A stretch of DNA of 64,000 bases from contig NW_026570238.1 in assembly GCF_019649055.1 (NCBI RefSeq), forward strand, positions 434,001 to 498,000, written 5' to 3'. Made by a program: the position numbers and the translations under genes. A model generated the notes under the pieces. It saw only the letters and a list, made by a program, of their open reading frames with translations. It did not search any database and had not been told where the DNA came from. Shown piece after piece: positions 45,887 through 60,100 of this stretch; the first letter of the stretch is position 1; each line of letters opens with the position of its first letter. This DNA is from Paramacrobiotus metropolitanus (taxonomy: Eukaryota; Tardigrada; Eutardigrada; Parachela; Macrobiotidae).

Positions 45887-48800
45887 ATGGCCCAAAGGGT
45901 CCCTGTTATAGGCCTTGGAACCTACTTGGTGAGAAGAATGAACAGGTGTAGCGGTCTCATTAGCAGCACAGCGAAATTAGCAGCAGGCTTGTTTCCATTG
46001 GTGCTGCTAAGTTAATGGGGTTGGAATTGCTGTCAGTCACCAAGCAGCGTCCAAGTTGCAAATTAGCAACAGCAGCGCCGCCGTACCCTGCATTGTGTTT
46101 CAACTCTAATCGTATTCGCTCACTTTCATGCTTTCTGCATTAATTATAGTTTTAATTTCAAAGAATTTTTAGCGAATTATTCAAATACTCTTGTGAAATT
46201 TGAAATTCATCTTTCAAACGTTCTTTTCTGAGCTGGATGCGTCGTGCCGCAGGTGTTGTCCGTATATTATCGTGAGCCTTGGTAGGTCTCCTTTGATCTT
46301 TTCGTGACAGTGCATTATTTCTCTGCCGATTCACGAGCCTGAGCATTCAAAGTTCTTTCCACTACCATGCTTCCATGCTTCGCTACGGGCGAGCTCATTC
46401 CTTCCCTCATACTAAATAATGCCCCATGATTGCAGTGTCTGAAAGCTAGGATCGTCAAGACTGCGGAGATCTGCGGTGACGAGCAGCGGTTCCACCAACT
46501 CGTCAGGCTGTCCCCAGCTCTGTCCAGACGGATTAACGAACAGGTTTGTGCATTACGTTTCTGGATTCTATGCGCACACACAGCTGAAAACTCGTGCAAA
46601 CTGGCTATCTAAGACAATTTTTTGAGAAGGTGTTGACATATCACGGGCAAGGTGTTCTGAAGCGTGGTCGACAGCACGCCTAGCGTTGGCCCTTTAAAGA
46701 CGTGAAGAATTTTATCTGCTAAAAGAGCCTGGAGAACCGCTAACCCTGTATCATAATGGCGCTATCATCTGATCAGGTAAGAAACAGTTGCAAATTCTTC
46801 GTTATCCAGCTTTCGAAGCGCAAGTTGTTCTTTGCAGTCTAGTGGAGCGGTTGGAACTTCAGGAGATGAGTCATCAGGCGGAATCCACGAGAAGCTTGCC
46901 CTGGAAAGCGAAGAAGTTCTGAGTATGTTGCGCATCAAGCTAATGATTATGTGAAATATTGGTTGTTTGATCTCAAGATCACATTGCTAGCCTGATTCCA
47001 CCTGTTTTGTAGTAAGAGAAGCTTCGTTGCCGCTGCATAATCTCTTCAACGCTGTTAAGGGAAAGCACCGAATTCGGATTATAAATCCACTGCACTTGGA
47101 ATCTTTCAAGGAAACTTTTCGCGATAAAGCTCCGTCTTCGCAGTCCATCTTTTTAACGGGAATCATTGACGCGCAGCCCGATGGAACTTTGGACAAGGAC
47201 ATTATACAAGCAGTCAAAGAGAATCGCATTCCCGTGTATATTATTGACGGTAATGTTTGTGTCAGCCCTGGCAATAATAAAATCAGAATTCAACAATTGT
47301 TATAGGTAACCACCGTTTGCGCGCCTTGAAAGAACTTGCTGAAGAAAAGGATTCGACGTGGTCAGAACAAAGCGAAGTACTTGTGAAAGTGTACAAGCCT
47401 TTGTCAAAATATGCCGGCATGCGTCTAGCGCGGCAAAAGGCAGAATCTGTCAATAACCAGCGCCAAGAGACTATATGAGACCTCTGCCGCTTGTTTCGGG
47501 ATATTTGTTTTATGCACCAGGAAGATATTGGCGATGAATCTGTAGAAGTGAATAATGATAAATCGGTCGTCATTAACTGCAATCGAAAAATTGCTGCCGT
47601 TACGTCGATTCAGGTGAGAAAGAGATTTTCCGTTTGATCTTGGGATCAAAACGCCGTTGGCGAGTATTTATTTATCAAAATTTACCATAGTTGCATATCT
47701 GATCCTGGGATCAAACTGTATAATCGCCCGGGTTTCATCCTTTTGCAGAATGTGAGTGCATCGCATCGGTATTTCTTGGAATGGGCCAGACTTCCAGCTG
47801 ATACGTGGGCCGTTGTGGAAGAATTCATGACTGCCGTGGAAAGCGGAGACGGTTTTGCTGACGTTCCTTCTGAAACAGACAAGAGCGAAAAAGTTAAGGT
47901 CGAGGGAAAAGTACGTGAAGCTAAGCACCGTGGAATTGTTTTTAAAGATATCAAGACCGTTTTGAAAACCGACGAAGTCATTAAAAAAGTTTTGAAAGAA
48001 GCAATCGCTCAAAGGAGTTATGCCCCAGTAACGGCGTTAAAACAAGCAGGTATGAATTTCTGAATTTTGTTGCGCTGTACATGCTTAAGTACTATATTGC
48101 GTGTTCAGCCAAAGCAAAAGCTACCGCTACAAAGGCGACGACATCAACTACCGCTGAAACCAAACGGCCGGTCTCGTCTCCCTCGTCCCGAGCCAAGAAA
48201 GTCAAAACTGCTAGTGCCGATGGATCAGCTGCGCCGGTTGACGTCGTCGCAAAGATTTCTCCACCCAAGACTGACACTGTGGATTCTCGACCAGTAAGTC
48301 CTCTGAAGTTTCAAGCTTGGCACAATTGATCTTGAGATCAAATTTGATCCATAAAATAATAATATTTACTTTGCAACGTAACGTCAACATGTCTATCTGC
48401 AGAGCGACTTAGCTAAAGAACTGGAAACTGTCCGTAAAGAGAAGGAGGAAGCGCTGTCCAGTTTTGAGAAAGAACATGTACGCAATAAGCTAAAGCACCT
48501 TTTTGTTCTGGAGCTGGTGTATATGCGTGTGTTTGTAGATGTCCGCTAACAACCTCACTAAAGAACTGAAGAAAATGCGTGAGGCAATAGATGAAGCGCT
48601 TTCAAACCTACAGAAGGAGAAGGTAATTTTAAATGCGACATCTAATCTTGAGATCACAGGCAGCTTTAATGCAAAACGCCAGATGTCAAGCGTTACTCGA
48701 GCTACAAAATGTTTTTGTAGACCGCTCTTGTCACCATATCGGAAGAATTGGTGAACCTACGAAAAGAGAAAGAGGAAATGCTTGCAAAACTTCGGGCGAT

Positions 48801-51800
48801 AGAGGTACGCATTAAACCATTGTTTCACATTCAACTCTAGATTTTATAAAGTAGTTAAAATTCAGACTGCTTAAGTTTGATCTTGAGATCACAAGAAATG
48901 TTATTTGAAGGCAAGCAGCGCTGGACAAAGTTCTCCAACGCCGTCCGAGGGCAGTCGACTCCCATTCATGCGGCTCGAAAAACAGTTCGTAAGTATTTAG
49001 TCTTCAAACTTAATAAGTAATTATTATAACTGTAATTGCCATTTAGGCTCATTCAATCGTGAGTTCCGTACGGCACATGTGCTTCCTGGATGGAAAACGT
49101 ACCCTGTATCATGATGGTCAAATCGATCGCATTACACAGATGATCACCACCGATTCGTTCGGCATTTTGGAGAAAGGAAAACGAGACTACTCTAAACAGG
49201 AACGGGTTTCTCTTCACAAAAATGAGGTTTATTTTATTGATAAAACCTGGTACAAGTCCAAGTTGGGAATTGTCAGCATTGATATCGAAAAATTCAGTGA
49301 GATTCTCGAATAATGCGAGCAAATTGTTGATTTGATGCCCTGTTAGCACTTTGTTCTTTAGTTTGAATTTTATATGTATCTGCTAGACTTTCAATATTTT
49401 GTTGAGCTTTTTTATGTGAAACTTGAATGTATACTGTTGTCAGGTAAATTTTGTAGCAGCACATCCCGCTCACACTGTGCGGAATAAATCAACGATGGGT
49501 AATTACATACTGAAATCAGTTTTACGAAATGTGGTCTTTCATTGCCTGATTCTCTTTTGGGGGAAAATATCCGGTATGAAATGATGATTGAAAATCTCTG
49601 GATAGTCGTCGTTTCGTTGACAGGGACTATGACGACCACAAATGTTTCGCTCGATCGGGAGCAGGCGAAAACGATAACGCTTATTATGGAAGCTGTCAGC
49701 TTTGCCGAGGCCACAAACAAAAGCGGGCACGGAAATCAAATTGTGCTGTGCTAGATGAAAACGATAATCCGCCCAAATTTAACGATTCTGTTTATGTAAT
49801 GGCTACACCGGTTTACGGCAAAAAAGGTTTACTTGTGGGAAAGTAATTAATGCCTGAACCTATCATGATTTAAGCGCTGATTAATGATTATAAAATTAGT
49901 ATAACAAATACGCGATAAATTGTTAGCTGATTTATATTAATTTTATTATGCTTTTTAGGTGACCGCAACCGATGCGGACGAGAGGAAGAAGGGTGTAATA
50001 AGTCTCAGTGATTTTAAACCAGCCGTTAATATCAATAAACTCTTCCACCGGCGATGCGAGTTTGGCGAAGGATTTGACCGAAAAGGAGTTAACACAGGAA
50101 CTTTCGTATACTATTCGTGCGAGCGACAGTGGTAACATCAGCCTGCATTCCGACGCCGCCGTTCTCCTTCGCATCGTGGCGGATACGGTGCCACTTTTCC
50201 CGCAAAATACGTACCGCACCAGTGTATCGGAAGCCGCCGGAGTCGGGACACTGCTTCTTACTGTCAGTGCGACTTATGCCGGCTTGGTCAACATTTCCCG
50301 GGAGATCGTCTACACTATCATGGAGGGCGACCGCTTCAACAATTTTGACATTGATTTCACATCATGTATCAATATTGCCGATATGAGTAGTGAACTAACG
50401 GAAATATGATTGCGCCAGTAATTACAGGAGTGATTCGTCTGCTGGAGCCGGTTGACTTCGATTCTTCGAACTACAGAAACATTTTACGCTGTGTGTACGT
50501 GCCATGGATCCGGCCAAATGGGAAATTTTATACTCGGATATTGTCGTATTTGTTGACATTCTCGACTGACACAATGCAAAAATGAGCTATAATTAACGTG
50601 TACATTAAACATGAACCAAACAAACTTTCAGTTTCTTAATATATCTTATTAGTACAATTTACCGAATTTTTTCAATAAGAAATATTTCTCAGACATTGAA
50701 TAAATATTACAGTGCTAATGAAATAATTGGTTCTTAGATGGAGTGACCTTTCAAACAATCAAACTAGCCGAGACTACACCATGGAAAAAAGAAATCTGTC
50801 AGCCTGTGGCATCCGATGCCGATAGCGGCGAGAACGCGGAACTTCCCTTCAGTCTGCAATGTTCGGAAGACGCTGCACGTGTAACCGTAAGCCGTATTCG
50901 CAACCGGAAATCGGATGAAGATGTGTTTTTCCGATGCGGCATCAAGAAGAGCCTTAGCGGTGCGGACGAGTTCAAAGCCGGCGATTTATTTCCAGATTGG
51001 TTTCACTAGCGGCACAGTGTATCTGATTAACGAATTGGATCGCGAGATGATTGACCAACTTGACCTGACGATAATCGTATCAGATGCCGGCCATCCTCGC
51101 CGCAGCTCAGCCATGACCCTGCGCGTCGTAGTGAAAGGTGAGATACAAATGACTAAATAAACTTGTTTATCGGTAAAGAAAGTCCAACCGGCCTCTTTAC
51201 CATCGACAGACAAGGTACTAAACTCTGGCAATTAACACCATTGGCCGAAGGCATTTGTGAAAATCTAAAACTATTGTATTTAAATTTGCCTGAAGATAAC
51301 ATCATTATACTTAAATTTTTATGGTTTGCTTCGAAAATACATATATACTCGTAGATACATGCAAAAAAAGCCCATAATCTTTAGAATAAAAAACAGCATA
51401 ATGGTAACAGAGTGGTACTTTAGGAATAGTTGCGTTTTTCTCTGGAGCAACGGGTTTCCTGCGGAGTTCTGCCCAGCTGAATATTTCCGCGTCGGACGGT
51501 GTACATGTCGCGTGTACTCAAGTGAAGATTCTTCCGGTCATTTCCAATCGCCATTCACCAAAGTTTGACTGGCCATTCTATGCATTAACTACTGCTTAAA
51601 ATGCCCCACTGGGCAGTGTCATCGGTGCGGTTCGGGCCAGTGATTTAGACGCTGGACGCAATGGTCAGCTGCGATACTCCATTGTGACGATGGTTTTGTT
51701 GTTGACGCCGAGAGCCCTATCATTTCCGTGGCTGGTAATCTGGATCGTGAGCGTCAAGCTGATTACCTATTCTGGATTCAGGCGGTAGATTTGGGCGGAT

Positions 51801-54800
51801 TACGGGACTTTTGTCAAGTCAACATAACTCTCACCGGTACTTAACCGCAATATTTAAATTTATCTCTGCTAAGCTTCAACACACCCACCTCTTTCTACGT
51901 GCCCCAACAAATAACTGATTGATAAATTTGTGTTGCAGATATGAACGATGAAGCGCCAATCTTTGTAAGAAGACTTACACTGTCACTGTCTTCGATAACC
52001 TTGCTGCTGATGCAGCCATACTGAAGGGGATTGGTGAGAACGATTGCTCAAATATGACAGCGCTAAGAATTGTTTTTTTCATGAAGGTTGAGGCGACCGA
52101 TCGAGATCTTGGACAGAATGGTTCCGTTGTGTATAGCATCAGTTCAGAGAATTCCAGACATTTTAATTTATTTTACATCGACTTCCGAACTGGCATAATT
52201 AAGCTGAAGAAACCTTTTGGCACTGGTAAGGCAGACAACAGAAATTATCATATCATATATTTTTTACGAAGACAATTCAAGACATGCCGAACGAAGTGTC
52301 GGATGACTCGGATCCGTATTAACTGAATTGACAGTGTTCACGGTGACACGGTACATGTATATGCACGTGCTGCATGATTTAAAGTTTAGTCGAAGATACT
52401 AGTATAGTTATGAAATTAAACTCGCGAAAACAAAAATTTAACGTTGCATGTGTTGCACCTAATTTATTTATTGCAGAATTCACAAACGAGACGTTGTCCT
52501 CTTTCGTCGATGCATCGGATGAAGGAAGCCCTTTGCAGTGGTCCTCAGTGGCTGTCGAAATTTTCGTGGTGGATAACACAAACATTCTGCCCGAGATCGA
52601 CCAGTTGCTGTATCTTTTCAGTATCCACGAGAGCGCTCCACTGAACGCAACTCTGCTGACCGTGAAACTGAAATAACCTTAGCCAGTCATTTTTACCGTG
52701 ATACCCCCGTCGGCGTTAAACCAAACTGAACTGCCGTTTTCCATTCGCCAAGACGGCCGTCTCGTTGTGTTTAAGGAACTGGGTTTTGAAGCGCAGAACA
52801 AGTATTCGTACAGGCGACGTTCAAAGACAATCCGCTGTTGGTCAGCCATGTGGAGTTTCAGGCCCGTATTAACGATGAGAATGACAATGCGCTCGTGTTT
52901 TTCGCCGATAAGGTCACCGTCCAGACGCCGGAGAACTACACCGCTCCGGTCCGATTAATTCCAGTTTCGGCGTATGATATGGATTATGGGCAGAATGCGA
53001 TGATACGCTACGACCTTGTCAACGCGTCACAATTGCCAGTTGCGTTAGATCCAAAATCCGGATGGTTGACGCTGGAAACGACGATAGATCGAGAGATGGA
53101 CAGCAAAATTGTTGTGAAAGTTATGGAAGTGGACAGCGGCGTACCGGCTCTCATTTCGACAATGATTGTGGAAACTGATGTAAGCCTCTGCAAAGCATTT
53201 TTCGTTTTTGCCGTTACAGTCGAATCACCGTACGGTCCGTACGACAACCTGTACACCAACCACCTGTACAAAGTTCCGTGCTCAGTCATGTAAACTTATA
53301 GCGCTTCTATGATCTTTTTATACTATACAGTCATACGATGTTTCTGCCTCTTCGAAGCAAGTGCGCAATTATATAAATTCGCTTTCCAGGTTCTGGATAT
53401 TAACGACGAGGACGCTAGCTCCTGTACTCCTGTAGGAGCATTGAAATCGTCATGACCGATGTCGACGACCTGCACAACTACCTTTTGAACGTGGTCCGAA
53501 ATCCTTGAAGTGCTGAATTATGAACGGAATGCAAAAGATGACCGAGTCTTTTCGGCTGCATATGATTTATCGCACCCTGCCACAATTCTTATTCGTAAGC
53601 GTCAGTGACAGGCAGCTTATAAGTCATGACCTTTCGCCGGGTACGCAGAGTGCCACTGCCCTTTTTGGAAAGATAATTTGCAAAACTTTTGATTTACTTT
53701 ACTGTTACTTTTTCGCTGCCGCAAACGCTACTTTTACTTACTCTTTACTAATTACAAAACATTACTTAGTAAGCCAAGTACTAATAACTAAAACTTATGT
53801 TTTAGGAAGCAAATTTCGCGCGAAGCGCGAAGATGAGCAAATTACTTTATACTTACTTTTAATATTATTTTAAAAACCTTACTTACTGTTACTCTTACTT
53901 CAGATTCAAAACGTTATTGGTTACTGAACGCTTAATATTACGCTACTGTTTACTGAGTAACTTTTCCTTACTTATTGTCTACTCAGTAACCCATCACTGG
54001 TGCTGGCAAAACCGCTCAGAGCTTCGTCGTTTGAACAATCCCTAAGAGTTCGAAAATTCTCGTACTATTTGCAGTTTTGACAAATACAGAGTACTATCAT
54101 CTAAGCTGTACTCCAAATCATGTAATGTTCTGATACCCTCGCTCATATCAAGGCGTTTGTAGAACTTTTTTCTTGTGTTTTATGTCCGGATTGTTTTATT
54201 TACTTTATCCGGTACCTAAATCTAGTATGTCTAGAGGCACCTTAGTTAGAGGCACGTTAGTTAGACGCTGTATAGATTACAAGCCGTAATGATTTGCAGA
54301 TATAACAGTGCTAAACGGTAGTGCAGTGGCTTTTAATAGAAAACTGAGATTTGCAATCATTGTCTGATCTCGAGATCAAAGTCGAGTTTAAATTCTTGTC
54401 AAATTGGCACAAAAGTACCACCGCGTCTAGCGCAGATTTTAAGTAAAAGGTCATCGCAGCAAGAATGAGTGCAGCCTGAAATACCACCAAGGCAGTCTAG
54501 ACACGATCCTTTGTGATACATGTCACTTCCAGCTAAGTAGTTCTGAATCTTGTAGCAGTCTCGTTTAGTCAAGCATTCCCATTTCTCAAGGCCACTCATC
54601 CAACACCCAATGTCCTTCTCCTGACGCATCTGATACAGCTCCTGCAGCGCCGCATCCAGAATGCTTGACCCCGGACAGTGTGTCTCTTTGTAATGCTCAC
54701 CAGCAATCTTTTCTAGGAAACCAAAATACGTTTCAATTTCTAAAGTTGATGGCAAATCTTTAGGAATTACTTTCGACAGGAACCCGTTTTCTTTGAAATA

Positions 54801-57800
54801 CTGTCGCATCTTGTCGGCAAAGTCTGGTATCAGTTTTTCGATTTCCTCTTTGGTTGGAGCAGTCTGGCATACGTCATCACGCACAGAATAAGCCAAAGTC
54901 GTTGAATCCGAAATATCTACATTGCTTTGCGATTTTCTGCTAAAAAGAAGCTCTTTCCCGTTGACATACATTTCTGTGAACATTTTTGCGTTTTCAGCAG
55001 TTCTGCATGGCGGATCTCTGTCGCCGTTCCCGTAATAATCAATCCTAAACCGACCCGGGAGTGTGCGTGAAGTTTCAGTTATTCTTACGACTTTTGAACG
55101 AATCCGTGCGCTGCTCTTAGGCTTCTTTCGAAACGTCGGCTTCCAAAGAAATATGTCACCTTTTTCAATGGAGACTTTGCGAGATGCTACTGCGGGCTTG
55201 TAAACGTTGCGATAAAAACGCCGCTCCACACATTCCAGTATCGTATCTCTGACACAGGCCCGACGAAATGCAAGCGTTTCCAGCCCAGTTAAAGCATGGG
55301 AACGCACCGGCTCCGGTAGTTTTTCTAATCGGTCTAAATGGCTAGCAATATTTTCATCGCAATCCTCTTCGTACTGCTCAACTTCTTCAATGGTTTGAAA
55401 TTCTTCTTCTTCGTCAAAATTTTTTCCGGAGTGAGGTTCCGTAGCATGTCCAGTTGGTACTCGTTCGGCTCGATAGGGTCCAGTTCTAAGAGAAATAAAA
55501 ACTTTATTTGATCTTGAGATCACATGATTGCGAGTTACATCAAAGCGTTAATCAAGGGTATTGCATATTATTAATTCTTATATTCACTACGTTTACCGAT
55601 GCCAAATTCGTTTCCATCCGGTAATGAGGGATATCCTTTAAATGCTTCGAACGGTGTCATACCAATGGAATGGTGGTCAGTACAATTGAGGATCCGCTGA
55701 ACTGTTGGAAGCAAGTAAGGCCACGCGATCGCTTGTAAAGCGGCATCCGTGTTAGCCATAAGATGAGCCAAAACACGTTTCACTTTTTGATTTAGCCGTT
55801 CAACTTGTCCCTAGTAAACAAAAATGAAATGGTTGAGGAACATAGAACGCTACTACACGGCAAACCTGAGATTGTGGATGGTATGGTGCACCGTGAACAA
55901 AAACGGTTCCAGCAGGTTCTAACAACTCCTTAACGCGCTTATTGACAAACTCCTTTCCATTGTCGCTATGAAGCAGCTGTGGGCCGCCCTCATTTATAAA
56001 AAAAAGCTGCAAGGTTTTTCGCATTTCTTGGCCGGATTTAGATCGCAAAGGATACAAAAAACAGTACCGCGTTAGACATTCCGTAACAGATAACACATAA
56101 CGATACTCAGCATAGTTCAATCGCATCCCGGCATCAGAGTCCGGCGCCATGTCGATCAAATCGATTTGCAGCCTTTCCATTATTTCATGAACTCGAATTA
56201 TTTTTGGGACATACGGCAGGACGCAGGACTGGCTTAGCCTGACGAGTAATTTGACAGCCCTTGCAAATATCTTTTATAGAAGCCGCAACGGTCTTGGCGT
56301 AGGGGCAGTATATCTGTCGAAGCGACTGCTTTGCCAATAGATTTGCGCTTTTTGGCGCACATGTCAGCGATGGAGAGAGATGGTTCCTCCATACGATTTC
56401 GAAAGCCTTGCGGAAGCGGCAGAACACTCTCTCCTGACATGGCTTGGTCTTGTACAGCAAATTTCCCAGATCGTCATACCGAAACCTATAATTTTCTTCA
56501 GATAACTTTCCAAAGTAAAAAAACGTGATCGCGACCGCAGAAGATTTCGTTCCTCTAGTGAGAGTGCCTAAATTTCCAAAGTAGGTGTTAGTTTTGATCT
56601 TGAGATCACAACAAGAAATTACTGCTTACATCTTTATCTTTCAATCTTTTTGTAAGGCGCTCAATTTTTGATATTGTTGCGTCGCTGATAAAACCTCGGA
56701 CGGAAAATTTTGAAGAGTCCAACTGACCTTGGAACAGATGCGTCACAATTCCAAAGACTCGTTCTTCTATAGCAATTTAACGTGAAAATCATACTGAAAC
56801 TTTAACTTTAATTTTTTTTACCTTCTGCTGCGACGTCACCAGCAAAACCAGAGCCTAAAAAGCAACAATTAAGAAAAAAACAATGATATTAAAAAATGCA
56901 TTTTTATAGACTATAGTTGACCTTTTGGCTCCATTATGTCGGCGGTATAAGAATTCATCAATCCTTTCTTGAATAAAATCGTAGTAGATAAAGGTTTGCG
57001 TCGCTTTTCACAAGCAAAAACTTCCTCTGCTTGGTTTATGGTTTCCGGTACATCGACCACATCCTGATCATGTTCGGCAGTGCTATTTGTTGAAAGGAAG
57101 AGTGAGTGCTCTTGAAAGCGTACCATATTTGGAAAATCGCAGATGCACCACACTTCAACTTCAGTCATTTGGGATTTATCTTTTGCTTCCAAAGAATCAA
57201 GGTATTCCAAAAGAATGCCGTTAGCGAAAAGGTCGAGTCGCACGGCAGAAAAATGGTTGTTTTCCAAAAACAAACACCACGGCTTTTTTGCTTTATCGGT
57301 TCTACAGCGGACCCACACCGAATGATAGCCCTGTAAAAGATGCAATGTGAATAACAGCAACGAAATCTTGTTATTGAGTTCCGTATTTGATCTTGAGATC
57401 AAACTGACCTGCGGGCGTATGATGATAATATTATTGTCGTGCGCAACCGCAGCAGCAATTATCCACATATAGCAGGTCCAGCTACAATCCTGGGTAATTT
57501 TCACAGCATGCTCATCAAGCCACGGTACGTACATTTCCGATGGCAGGATCCAAATACAATCTTCAGAAATATTGTTTCTGCGCGTTACTGGTTCTAGAGA
57601 TTCTTTATCCACATACTTCAGGTGCAAATTTGACATATGCCGCTCGGCACAAAACTGTGCAAGAGATGCTACTAATGTCTTCTGGTGTTTCTCGAAGCGA
57701 CAACAAGAATCTTTTTGATCATTTGGGTGAATAATTAAAGCTTCTCTTTCCAAAATCAAGCAGAGAGCTGTTCTAAGCCGGTACTCAACTGCTAGTGCTT

Positions 57801-60100
57801 CTGTACCGTTCCCAAGTATCGCCAAAGCGTTGAAAAAGCAGTTTCCATCACCCGTGGTCTGGAGTGCGCGAGACGTGTCAAAGATTATAGGAACAAGAGC
57901 TCTGAGTTGCTTTGTTTCTTCAGTTGCGGTCTGTCCTGGATTCAGTTCATCCAGATAGTTCAAGGAATCAAGCGTGAAACCCCGAGAACCCAGTTCCTCC
58001 CATATTGCTGCAGCTTGAACATACAAACCGGACGAACACGTTCGAGCTGTTTCACACAAAGAACTCAAAGCAGTTTTGCAAAATATAATCCTCTCTTCCA
58101 TTGTCATGCAAAAGTTCAAATCACATTATTTTATAAATTATTTGTTTCAGCCAAGAAAATAAACAGCAATAGCAACTGCTACGCAAATATTGCGTCACTA
58201 CCCAGAATGATAGCAGCAGCAGTAAGTATCTGCAGTGCTGTTTGGATCCAGAAAGGGGCGTAGCGTAGGCGTTCCCATTGCTTTCAACAGCACCAATGAA
58301 ACTTTCCTTGCTGCTAATCTGACGGCGCTGCTAATGAGACCGCTACAACTGGGAATGAGGACGATTACAACTACAGTACAGTACTTTAGTATGTAGTTAA
58401 CGAGATTTTGTTGGCGTTATTTTAAGTACTAATTCTAGTCCACTTTTTCTGGATCTTCTGTGCACATGGTTTCAGTTTTAAATTAGGCTGAAGCAACCAA
58501 AGTGTGTGCCGCTGTCAAGTATGCCATTGATGTTGGCTATCGACATTTCGACTGTGCGTATTTGTATGGTAACGAAAAAGAGATCGGACAAGCAAATGCG
58601 GCAAAAATCTCTGAAGGCATCGTGACACGAGAGGAACTTTTTGTAACGAGTAAGGTCCGCACATGAATCTGGGATCAGTGTGTCTGTTGTAAATTTAAAC
58701 AAGTTGTACATAAAGCAGTTGGTTTTTCTGTTGTAGCTCTGGAATACGTTTCACAGTCGTGCAAAAGTTGCGGAAGGTGTTGCCATAAGCCTGAAAAGGC
58801 TCAGTTTGGACTATCTGGATTTGTTCCTCATACATTTTCCTATGGGTTATAAAGTAAGAAATTTTATTGCATTAGTAGTGTTCCCACAGCCAGGTGGAAA
58901 AAATGCCTTAAAATATACCGCTTTATCTGCTAGTGATTAATTGGCGAACAACGCATGTGATCTTGAAAATTAATTTACTTTTTAATTTGAACAATTTTGT
59001 AGTTAGTTGGCACCGATTTGTTACTAATCTGGGTAACGTTTTACGGAGGACAATGCAGCACATCTGTCGGTAGTGAGGAGGAATTATGTACCGTATTATT
59101 TCGAAATTTGTCCAGTTACCTAATCAGTTATTAATTTCGAGTTTATTGTTGTTTAATAATTTTTAATTTTGTGAGGATGTTGCCGGAACAGCGGTATAAA
59201 AGAAAATTAATATTAGTTTGATATGCATGGTTCATTGTAATAGGAGGGGAGGAGCAGTCATCCAGGATCGTACTCGGACGTCGACTACCTGGAGACTTGG
59301 AAAGTAAGGATAAACTGCGTTTGAATGCTGTGTACGCTATCCTCGCATTCGCTCTGTAATCCTTTGTGCAATCCAATACCGAATTCTGTAGGCTTTAGAA
59401 GATGTGGTTGATTCCGGGAAAGTCCGTGCCATTGGGATTTCGAACTTCAACGTACCACAGACCAAGAGGATCCTGGATCACTGCCGCATCAGACCACTGT
59501 GCAACCAGATAGAAGTCAATGTTTACCTTCAGAACCGTGCCCTTGTGGATTTTTGTGCGAAAAACCATGTGGCTGTGGTTGCTTATGCTCCTCTTGGTGG
59601 TGAATATGCTGAGGTGGGAAGCGATCTGGGATCGCCTCTTGCAGATCCTGTGGTCCACGAGACTGCCCAAAAGTACGGCAAAACACCGGCACAGGTTAGT
59701 TATAACATGGGTTGCTGTTGTTTGGATAGTCAGTAAACACTGTGTGTGGACTCAGGACTAAATTTGCCATCTGAGCGTTTTTTGCCTTAATTCCTCAACT
59801 GTGACACTTTACTGTTTTAGTGCGGCTATACGCTACATTTTCTTTGTTTCTAGATCCTTATTAAATTCCTGCTACAGCAGAACCTGATTGCTGTTCCGAA
59901 ATCTGTGACGAAATCCCGTATTAAACAGAATTTCGACGTAAGTAACTATTTAAAGATGCAGTCTGCCCTTATATTTTTAATGCTGGATTTATCAACAGGT
60001 GTTCGATTTTACACTGGAAGAACCGGACATGAGCTGTTTGAGGGCCCTGGATAAAGGGCAGATGTATCGTAGTACTGCAATGCTGAAGTGCATATTCTAA
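45887..60100 (+). CDS. Aldo-keto reductase with a 12.4-kb transposon in intron 1
   Basis: NADPH-dependent carbonyl reductase, (beta/alpha)8 barrel, cytosolic. Exons 45887-45928, 58487-58654, 58737-58853, 59244-59303, 59392-59694, 59854-59937 and 59999-60100 join in frame to 292 codons (291 aa), close to the family norm of about 300-320. Exon 1 encodes [14 protein letters not shown] and exon 2 continues [20 protein letters not shown], exactly the conserved N-terminal AKR sequence. The full tetrad is visible: Asp and Tyr in DCAYLYGNE, Lys in the TSK/LWN junction, and His in [15 protein letters not shown], an AYAPLGG strand and the cofactor-binding [14 protein letters not shown] follow. Introns 2-6 are short. 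Intron 1 is 12,558 bp, of which 12,401 bp is the element; removing it leaves about 157 bp. The gene looks intact if the large intron is spliced. Confidence 0.9.
45947..46020 (+). repeat. Left terminal inverted repeat of the element
   Basis: The outer 21 bp (45947-45967) match the right end exactly. Similarity then continues with mismatches to about 46020, including the shared blocks ATTAGCAGCA, CATTGGTGCTG and AATGGG. ATTAGCAGC occurs at 45959 and again at 45977, a subterminal repeat of the kind transposases bind. Starts 18 bp downstream of the AKR exon 1 splice donor. Confidence 0.9.
46436..46543 (+). other. Possible small exon upstream of the ParB-like gene
   Basis: Flanked by a TTGCAG acceptor and a CAG/GTTTGT donor. 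36 open codons include [20 protein letters not shown]. It may be an upstream exon of the ParB-like gene or a degenerate fragment. No homology is recognised. Confidence 0.25.
46756..49313 (+). CDS. ParB/sulfiredoxin-like domain protein with coiled coil, element-encoded
   Basis: Eleven exons join to 575 codons: 46756-46776, 46838-46922, 47013-47249, 47306-47613, 47749-48049, 48109-48293, 48403-48477, 48539-48622, 48721-48804, 48911-48988, 49047-49313. All splice phases agree. The second to fourth exons form a ParB-N/Srx-like fold segment ending in [16 protein letters not shown]; GNHRxRA corresponds to the nucleotide-binding GxxRxxA motif of bacterial ParB (family knowledge). Exons 5-6 have a helical domain ([14 protein letters not shown]) and a Lys/Ser/Thr-rich linker resembling a nuclear-localisation region. 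Exons 7-9 are three phase-0 coiled-coil units of 25, 28 and 28 residues. Exon 11 is an unrecognised compact domain ([15 protein letters not shown]). An in-frame TGA at 47476-47478 interrupts exon 4 unless a weak 72-nt intron (47449-47520) is spliced. Five introns carry the 14-bp palindrome. Role unknown. Confidence 0.72.
49314..49541. other. Spacer between ParB-like gene and cadherin remnant
   Basis: 228 bp of AT-rich sequence; probably the 3' UTR of the ParB-like gene. No palindrome copy is present. Confidence 0.4.
49542..53293 (+). pseudogene. Decayed cadherin (multi-repeat, protocadherin/Fat-like) remnant
   Basis: Fragments of several extracellular cadherin repeats lie collinear on the plus strand but in changing frames. 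SLDREQAK at about 49640; [10 protein letters not shown] at about 49756; VTATDADE after an AG acceptor near 49958; a repeat to about 50400; [18 protein letters not shown] near 51035; [20 protein letters not shown] near 51620 with LDRERQADY after it; DMNDEAPIF near 51940; [17 protein letters not shown] near 52086; INDENDNA near 52868; and [11 protein letters not shown] then [10 protein letters not shown] near 52975-53110. Calcium-binding DxNDN, DRE and DAD motifs remain. Frame changes and stops between fragments mean no continuous product. Intron-like gaps with splice-like edges remain, so this looks like a captured genomic segment, not a cDNA copy. No TM or cytoplasmic domain is visible. Confidence 0.75.
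53640..53998. repeat. TTACT/AGTAA-rich patch, possible non-autonomous element
   Basis: Dense TTACTT, GTTACT and AGTAA words over about 350 bp. It ends AGTAACCCATCACTGG, whose complement CCAGTGATGGGTTACT resembles hAT-type non-autonomous ends (from memory). It contains a small GC palindrome TTCGCGC-GAA-GCGCGAA at 53815-53831. The left boundary is not clear. Confidence 0.4.
54399..58107 (-). CDS. OTU-protease plus retroviral-type integrase (Ginger-like transposase), two frame breaks
   Basis: Transposase gene read right to left. Exon 1 (58107-57419) has an OTU cysteine-protease core, [12 protein letters not shown] (Cys about residue 90). After an 88-nt intron, exon 2 (57330-56922) has the partner His in ENNHFSAV. 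Short exons 56854-56822 and 56766-56640 follow. The next exon (from 56567) carries an H2C2-like zinc-binding segment ending YCPYAKT and CKGCQITRQ, then the integrase core. D in QIDLID, D in [10 protein letters not shown] and, after a 55-nt intron, E in GQVERLN are spaced as DD(35)E. A C-terminal exon from about 55486 to 54399 has a basic, SH3/GPY-like region (KGDIFLWKP) and Cys-rich end. Two apparent 1-nt shifts break the frame: in a T7 run at about 56515-56521, and in an A5 run at about 56201-56205. The DDE triad itself is intact. The phase into the last exon is unresolved. Confidence 0.8.
58274..58347 (-). repeat. Right terminal inverted repeat of the element
   Basis: The reverse complement of 58327-58347 equals 45947-45967. 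Weaker matching to the left end continues inward to about 58274 with one indel. The end lies 139 bp upstream of AKR exon 2, well clear of the acceptor. Confidence 0.9.

Follow-up and report, generated by a model that had tools for sequence, protein, structure and literature searches.

The 64,000-nucleotide window analysed here, bases 434001-498000 of contig C18 of the Paramacrobiotus metropolitanus genome (169.8 Mb, 533 contigs), contains a 12,401-bp element with terminal inverted repeats (TIRs), E1, at 45947-58347 inside intron 1 of an aldo-keto reductase gene. We read E1 as a low-copy, recently active, Ginger-like DD35E TIR transposon encoding a ParB-like protein that would recognize dispersed palindromes as an accessory, self-marking system, and we give this reading a probability of about two in three. 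Ten copies of a 14-bp quasi-palindrome, TGATCTTGAGATCA, lie inside E1 and none in the remaining window, and a second family of elements in the same genome carries arrays of the palindrome with one symmetric base-pair change. These arrays, the second family and the 5-bp target-site duplication (TSD) are new beyond an earlier note on this DNA.

Element E1 and its copies

The earlier note had proposed a complete TIR element within an intron of an otherwise intact gene, and our analysis confirms it. The TIR arms (45943-46006 and 58288-58351) are 64 nt long and 80% complementary, with the outer 21 bp identical, and the three flanking exons of the host gene, when joined, match Pfam Aldo_ket_red at 65.2 bits. 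The TSD is perfect in six of the seven elements of this lineage that were found (E1-E4 and B1-B3). In E1 the two copies, ACAGG and ACTGG, are equal in four of five letters, while the perfect family A type TSDs are GCAGT (E2), CCAGG (E3) and ACAGA (E4). The main features of the locus are as follows, with both host exons placed from the sequence and from the Aldo_ket_red match of the joined exons.

45887..45928, plus strand: exon 1 of the host aldo-keto reductase gene, left of E1
45942..45946: left target-site copy, ACAGG
45947..46010, plus strand: left TIR, starting with TGTAG (TGTNR pattern)
46756..49313, plus strand: ParB-like gene, 11 exons with GT...AG introns
58101..54399, minus strand: OTU-integrase gene, taken as one gene
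58284..58347, minus strand: right TIR
58348..58352: right target-site copy, ACTGG
58487..58654, plus strand: exon 2 of the host aldo-keto reductase gene, right of E1

When the genome is searched with the TIR, we obtain at least eight matches, which pair into four elements: E1 and the three listed here.

E2, C18:314272-322693: 8,422 bp
E3, C9:1132368-1144763, minus strand: 12,396 bp
E4, C33:877677-880492: 2,816 bp, non-autonomous

Compared block by block, the identity of E1 is 99.1-99.4% with E2 and 99.5-99.6% with E3. Family A is a real transposon family and, judging by the near identity of its copies, was recently mobile. Both E2 and E3 carry the ParB-like and OTU-integrase genes between the same TIRs as E1, which bears out the earlier proposal of one TIR unit with both genes; copies consistently lacking the ParB-like gene, or separate TIR pairs around the two genes, would have spoken against it, and neither was found, E4 being a TIR derivative without either gene. 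By blastn, E4 matches family A at the TIRs only, and its interior is without a match. The four A-type palindromes of E4 stand in two pairs, and this element is possibly the derivative of a third, lost family.

The ParB-like frame is open over 574 aa in E3 and has one premature stop in E1; in E2, exon 5 is 4 bases shorter and exon 6 is 1 base shorter, and the frame is lost. Small indels private to single copies, also within genes, are many in E1, E2, E3, B1, B2 and B3, and may be assembly errors or decay.

Palindromic sites in two families

With up to two mismatches allowed, TGATCTTGAGATCA has 17 strand-matches in the window against 0.70 expected, a count reached in 0 of 100 shuffles. The ten sites in E1 are located as follows.

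46968..46981, minus strand: site 1, intron 2 of the ParB-like gene
47635..47648, plus strand: site 2, intron 4 of the ParB-like gene; the matching family B intron likewise has two sites at a distance of 65 bp
47700..47713, plus strand: site 3, intron 4 of the ParB-like gene
48327..48340, plus strand: site 4, intron 6 of the ParB-like gene
48643..48656, plus strand: site 5, intron 8 of the ParB-like gene
48878..48891, plus strand: site 6, intron 9 of the ParB-like gene
54365..54378, plus strand: site 7, 3' of the integrase gene
55509..55522, plus strand: site 8, OTU-integrase gene intron; family B likewise has one site in the homologous intron
56595..56608, plus strand: site 9, OTU-integrase gene intron; family B likewise has one site in the homologous intron
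57388..57401, plus strand: site 10, OTU intron; family B likewise has one site in the homologous intron

Six sites are thus found in five introns of the ParB-like gene, three in introns of the minus-strand gene (one each) and one 3' of the latter. None of the ten falls in a coding exon, while 67% of the two-gene unit is coding, and a cadherin gene fragment between the two genes has no site.

Across 170 Mb, exact TGATCTTGAGATCA occurs 22 times, with 18 matches in E1-E3, 2 in E4 and 2 elsewhere, and the reversed pattern occurs 0 times. Because 20 of the 22 exact matches lie within four elements, TGATCTTGAGATCA is not a widespread host motif. The looser pattern TTTGATCNNNNGATCA places 36 of its 66 genome matches in E1-E4 and scatters the other 30, with 8 for the reversed control. 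When TGATC-type sites with at most one half-site mismatch are counted, E1 has 10 against a shuffle mean of 0.55 (maximum of 4 in 60 shuffles), and E4 has 4 against a shuffle mean of 0.03. Since E4 has these four sites yet matches family A only at the TIRs, the palindromes look like cis-elements that go with the TIRs. A reading of the palindromes as RNA hairpins was rejected: four folded introns gave z values of 0.95, -0.67, -1.56 and 0.77, the 18-mer alone gave -2.49, and no consistent hairpin was seen.

The second family was found by comparing the ParB-like protein of E3 with the genome, which, besides E1-E3, yields three loci at 27-36% identity, each in 2-3 consecutive segments. The corresponding elements, with perfect TSDs, make up family B.

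B1, contig C3: 8,161 bp, TSD ACAAG
B2, contig C2: 8,170 bp, TSD GCTGT
B3, contig C11: left end split by ~9.8 kb, TSD AGGCT

The sequence that splits the left end of B3 occupies C11:713242-723073. Family B TIRs begin TGTAGACAG... and are related to those of family A. Further families may be present in the genome.

A de novo palindrome search of B1, made without the family A motif, returns TGGTC-N4-GACCA as its top family, with eight exact copies. Family B sites are of type TGGTCTTAAGACCA, that is, the family A palindrome with one symmetric base-pair change; in site letters, TTTGATCTTGAGATCAAA in family A corresponds to TTGGTCTTAAGACCAA in family B, and the main form common to both is T-G-R-T-C-T-T-R-A-G-A-Y-C-A. 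The distinguishing pair is A/T in all 14 A-type sites (10 in E1 and 4 in E4) and G/C in all 11 sites of B1. With at most one half-site mismatch, we count 11 B-type sites in B1, 11 in B2 (shuffle mean of 0.13) and 10 in the stretch of B3 that was read. Sites of the other family are absent at this threshold, with no TGGTC-type site in E1 or E4 and no TGATC-type site in B2. The looser pattern TGGTCNTNNGACCA has 40 of its 91 genome matches in B1-B3 and is informative only by this clustering, because the reversed control gave 87. B2 also has two TGCTC and one TGTTC matches (shuffle means of 0.22 and 0.30, respectively); a third site type, TGYTC, was dropped, having two single matches and no cluster.

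Site positions correspond in part between the families. The intron of the ParB-like gene at alignment column 250 (phase 0 in both families) holds two sites 65 bp apart in either family. In the minus-strand gene, three introns matched by eye, one following RP[QK], one preceding the zinc finger and one preceding ELDP, each hold one site in both families. At the protein level, the ParB-like frame of B2, open over 535 aa, is 28% identical to that of family A. The integrase core of B2 is 49-62% identical to the family A copies, with a single zinc-finger segment of E1 at 37%. Beyond the A copies, the best genome match of the core is at 32% (131 of 1069 candidates scored). The greater divergence of the ParB-like protein is what would be expected of the partner of a changed site.

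The ParB-like protein as candidate binder

Read by eye, the ParB-like protein has the motif DGNHRL in family A and DGQHRL in family B, followed by R-x-E-T-x-x-D, a segment that resembles the ParB helix-turn-helix (HTH) and precedes an 'LP' motif, a linker rich in Lys and a coiled coil. The likeness to an HTH was judged visually, and a scan of the B core matched no Pfam HTH. Other Pfam matches are sub-threshold: the A core matches ParBc_2 (E 0.0082), DUF1015 (0.016) and DndB (0.07), and the B core matches GmrSD_N (0.00037) and DndB (0.0018), families that we take to form one superfamily. The NCBIfam family DGQHR is also matched below threshold (E 0.013 and 0.055), as is the PHROG 'ParB-like partition protein' (best E 0.004), the only PHROG to match both members. 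Against nine bacterial ParBs, HHalign gives a weak profile match with a score of 26.7 (P 0.003), compared with 14.2 for the reversed control and 10.6-15.1 for 15 column shuffles. In PADLOC, one of the two members is matched, with residues 126-185 of the A core hitting PDC-M38A (E 9e-6) and PD-Lambda-5_A (0.0031). On the motif, the sub-threshold Pfam, NCBIfam and PHROG matches and the HHalign profile match, a relation of the protein to ParB is probable. No methyltransferase match was found in the full A protein (scan to E 5). The IMG/VR scans gave 16 pattern matches with the A protein, 51 with the alignment A1 and 12 with the integrase exon of B2, 0 of which were confirmed, and tblastn of the ParB-like protein against plasmids gave three records with a best E of 2.

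The simplest binder of the palindromes would be a ParB-like dimer, because the sites go with the TIRs, stay in the elements, avoid coding sequence and differ symmetrically along with the most-diverged protein. As a candidate binder, the ParB-like protein would recognize a 14-18-bp palindrome (TNTGATCTYRAGATCANA in family A, TGGTCTTAAGACCA in family B) of which each element has about ten copies, located in introns and outside genes. Its dimers would load on the palindromes, held by the coiled coil, and the loaded dimers would then coat or cluster the element DNA. Many dispersed sites over 8-12 kb are in keeping with a protein coating or clustering the DNA of its own element, and the arrays suggest that the protein marks this element as self. 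By analogy with TnpA of En/Spm, the likeliest use of such clamping or spreading would be an accessory complex that draws the element together during transposition, controls the two convergent genes, or both. We prefer this role over partition because no partner ParA ATPase was seen among the scanned window open reading frames and spliced pieces, a scan that took in neither every frame nor the genome, and because cut-and-paste ends need joining.

A bolder option is retention of the excised form. In its full version, this would be a working ParB-parS system in an animal nucleus, in which the protein loads on its own palindromes, spreads or clusters, and keeps the element together or segregating, perhaps as an excised circle or a synaptic complex, with the two families representing a natural specificity switch between TGATC and TGGTC. 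We offer this version tentatively and consider it the less probable form of the proposal.

Several observations weigh against a ParB-like binder. Every ParB-type match of the protein lies below the curated cut-offs, unrelated families appear at similar E-values (SACK1 at 0.05 and ATLF at 0.078 with the A core, and DUF5824 at 0.021 in the B-core Pfam list), and in Pfam a reversed control came to E 0.0096. Neither the ParB-like protein by itself nor alignment A1 finds a homologue that passes among the 7994 best word-sharing candidates scored in each case from 5.8 billion proteins. The best PDB matches, at E 1.3 with the A core and E 1.1 with A2, are both unrelated proteins, and PF02195 is without a match in the element's own genome, though it detects 10 of 14 controls. 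The correspondence of site positions has exceptions as well: intron 2 of A, at column 69, has one site, while intron 3 of B, at column 70 and in the same phase, has none; the introns at column 524 have 0 in A versus 2 in B; introns 6, 8 and 9 of A have no site-bearing counterpart; and the coiled-coil introns are not matchable. The differences between B1 and B3 (2/140 bases in sites, 30/1013 in introns and 24/1606 in exons) are compatible with constraint and, at that depth, are no proof of it. Finally, binding could be due to the integrase, to the OTU part or to a host factor.

The first of these possibilities would make the palindromes binding sites of the transposase, that is, of the integrase/zinc-finger protein, comparable to the subterminal transposase repeats known from other DNA transposons, and would have the ParB-like protein act otherwise, for example as a nuclease or nucleoside triphosphatase, both of which are described in the ParB/Srx superfamily in the portion of PMC5512222 consulted. 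That E4 keeps only TIRs and sites is what cis-requirements for transposition would produce. However, the sites do not cluster near the ends of the element and instead occur along its whole length, the integrase core has changed far less than the ParB-like protein while the site changed, and palindromes would suit an HTH dimer, so that we regard a transposase site as unlikely.

A neutral origin, with the palindromes as functionless leftovers spread by intron duplication or as the scar of a nested insertion, draws on the lengths of the introns. Among those measured, site-bearing introns are mostly longer (62-348 bp, versus 48-68 bp and a single case of 201 bp among introns lacking sites), and the sites therefore sit in added sequence; nor is within-family constraint demonstrable. 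Such an origin nevertheless leaves unexplained the symmetric change of both half-sites in 11 of 11 B1 sites, the matching positions in families with 28% protein identity, and the four sites of E4 beside sequence without a blastn match to family A, and we find it improbable. Binding of a host transcription factor, with the sites enhancing or silencing the transposon genes from within introns, would agree with the position of all ten E1 sites in introns or 3' of a gene. It is nevertheless the most doubtful alternative: in 170 Mb, just two exact copies of the 14-mer lie outside E1-E4, unlike a host regulon, and two families use different sites in one host.

Classification, passenger and known systems

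The minus-strand gene of E1 consists of the following exons.

58101-57409 and 57330-56922, minus strand: OTU exons
56567-55866 and 55810-55597, minus strand: zinc-finger/DDE exons, frame broken in E1
55485-54399, minus strand: C-terminal exon of the OTU-integrase gene

We infer that the OTU part and the integrase exons form a single gene, since the reading phase is kept across the splices as far as the zinc-finger exon. The integrase core matches Pfam rve (E 2e-13, 50.9 bits in E1; 48.3 bits in family B), and its best solved structure by sequence is the foamy-virus (PFV) integrase (E 2e-12). Its catalytic motif is DD35E, and the retroviral-type DD(35)E integrase of the earlier note is thereby upheld. 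In E1, the integrase frame is broken by a 7-bp tandem duplication that is absent from E2 and E3. The OTU domain passes the Pfam cut-off in B2 (28.1 versus 23.3 bits) and is not found by Pfam in family A. By eye, a candidate zinc finger of the form H...C...CxxC is seen in both families, with the second His not seen and no Pfam match, and at the position where GPY/F would be expected A has LPGRFRI and B has SSRYQV.

In the portion of Bao et al. 2010 (PMC2836005) consulted, Ginger1 elements are described as having TGTNR termini, TIRs of ~40-270 bp, a Gypsy-like DDE integrase, an H2C2 zinc finger, GPY/F, a C-terminal OTU or Ulp1 protease domain, and 4-bp TSDs of CCGG or CCGT/ACGG in 99% of cases. 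The lineage described here resembles Ginger1 in the TGTAG ends of E1-E4 and B1-B3, which fit TGTNR, in its TIR length (48 of the first 60 positions match in E1 and 33 of the first 40 in B2), and in its Gypsy-type DDE integrase core and OTU domain. It differs in that its TSDs are 5 bp, none of them CCGG or CCGT, and in that OTU lies upstream of the integrase exons, if these are one gene, rather than at the C-terminus. It also carries a ParB-like gene, which is not described in the main text of PMC2836005, where 'parb' has 0 occurrences. Ginger2/Tdd elements prefer an AT-rich RTATAY target, which is unlike GCAGT, CCAGG, ACAGA, ACAAG, GCTGT, AGGCT and ACAGG/ACTGG. The Ginger assignment of the earlier note thus stands in a looser sense: on these features the lineage is Ginger-like, and TSD and OTU position set it apart from Ginger1.

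The cadherin sequence of E1, listed in the earlier note as cargo, is present as a fragment.

49917..53407, plus strand: captured piece of a cadherin gene, spanning no less than these positions; 92% identical to contig C15 in four blocks, the compared C15 stretch ending at the left limit
49991..54018: stretch present in E1 and E3, absent from E2

The fragment matches Pfam Cadherin at 41.1 bits (52790-53293) and is 92-94% identical to the host gene on C15, whose copy (C15:353500-357394) has an extra ~156, 182 and 52 bp between the four blocks. It is present in E1 and E3, while E2 lacks ~4 kb of it together with the right edge, and it is therefore, by this comparison, a passenger of host origin. 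A low-complexity CTTACTTTT-like stretch at 53720-53990 lies at the right edge of the passenger and is also absent from E2.

Among the closest described systems is Sola1-1_Ec32 of a brown alga, which is a Sola1-superfamily transposon with an accessory gene encoding ParB-like and methyltransferase domains, as presented in the portion of PMC12477816 consulted, where the authors suggest that the accessory ParB-like protein binds its own transposon DNA. There, as here, the accessory gene is opposite in strand to the transposase gene. The algal protein also contains the methyltransferase domain, whereas the present lineage has no methyltransferase match, is of integrase type and resides in an animal, and candidate cognate site arrays are identified in it. 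The earlier note called the cargo combination unusual for an animal DNA transposon. ParB-like genes with a methyltransferase are known from algal transposons (PMC12477816), so that the mere presence of a ParB-like gene in a transposon of a eukaryote is no novelty. Among the open-licence papers that our searches listed, judged by titles and abstract starts, we found no description of an animal transposon with ParB and cognate sites. Further related literature, consulted in part, includes PMC10045372, PMC9587614 and PMC6431247.

Compared with bacterial ParB-parS systems (Spo0J, Noc and KorB, with solved structures), the protein described here has DGxHRL where bacterial ParBs have GERR, and the HTH-like segment before 'LP' noted by eye, and its element carries palindromic sites in several copies. 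It differs in being eukaryotic and inside a transposon, with no ParA seen in the scanned pieces and very low sequence similarity. In parS and NBS sites, specificity changes by a few base pairs. TnpA of En/Spm is a second transposon gene product that binds many short subterminal repeats of its element, but it is an unrelated protein, and its repeats are near the ends, whereas the sites described here occur throughout the element.

In bacteria, ParB-parS is known to clamp DNA and to serve in partition. If the reading presented here is true, a selfish element would be making use of this principle in the nucleus of a eukaryote. Since the same genome holds two families that differ in the protein and, symmetrically, in the site, specificity is directly testable with two small proteins and two short DNAs, and such protein-site pairs might allow selected loci in animal cells to be tagged or clustered.

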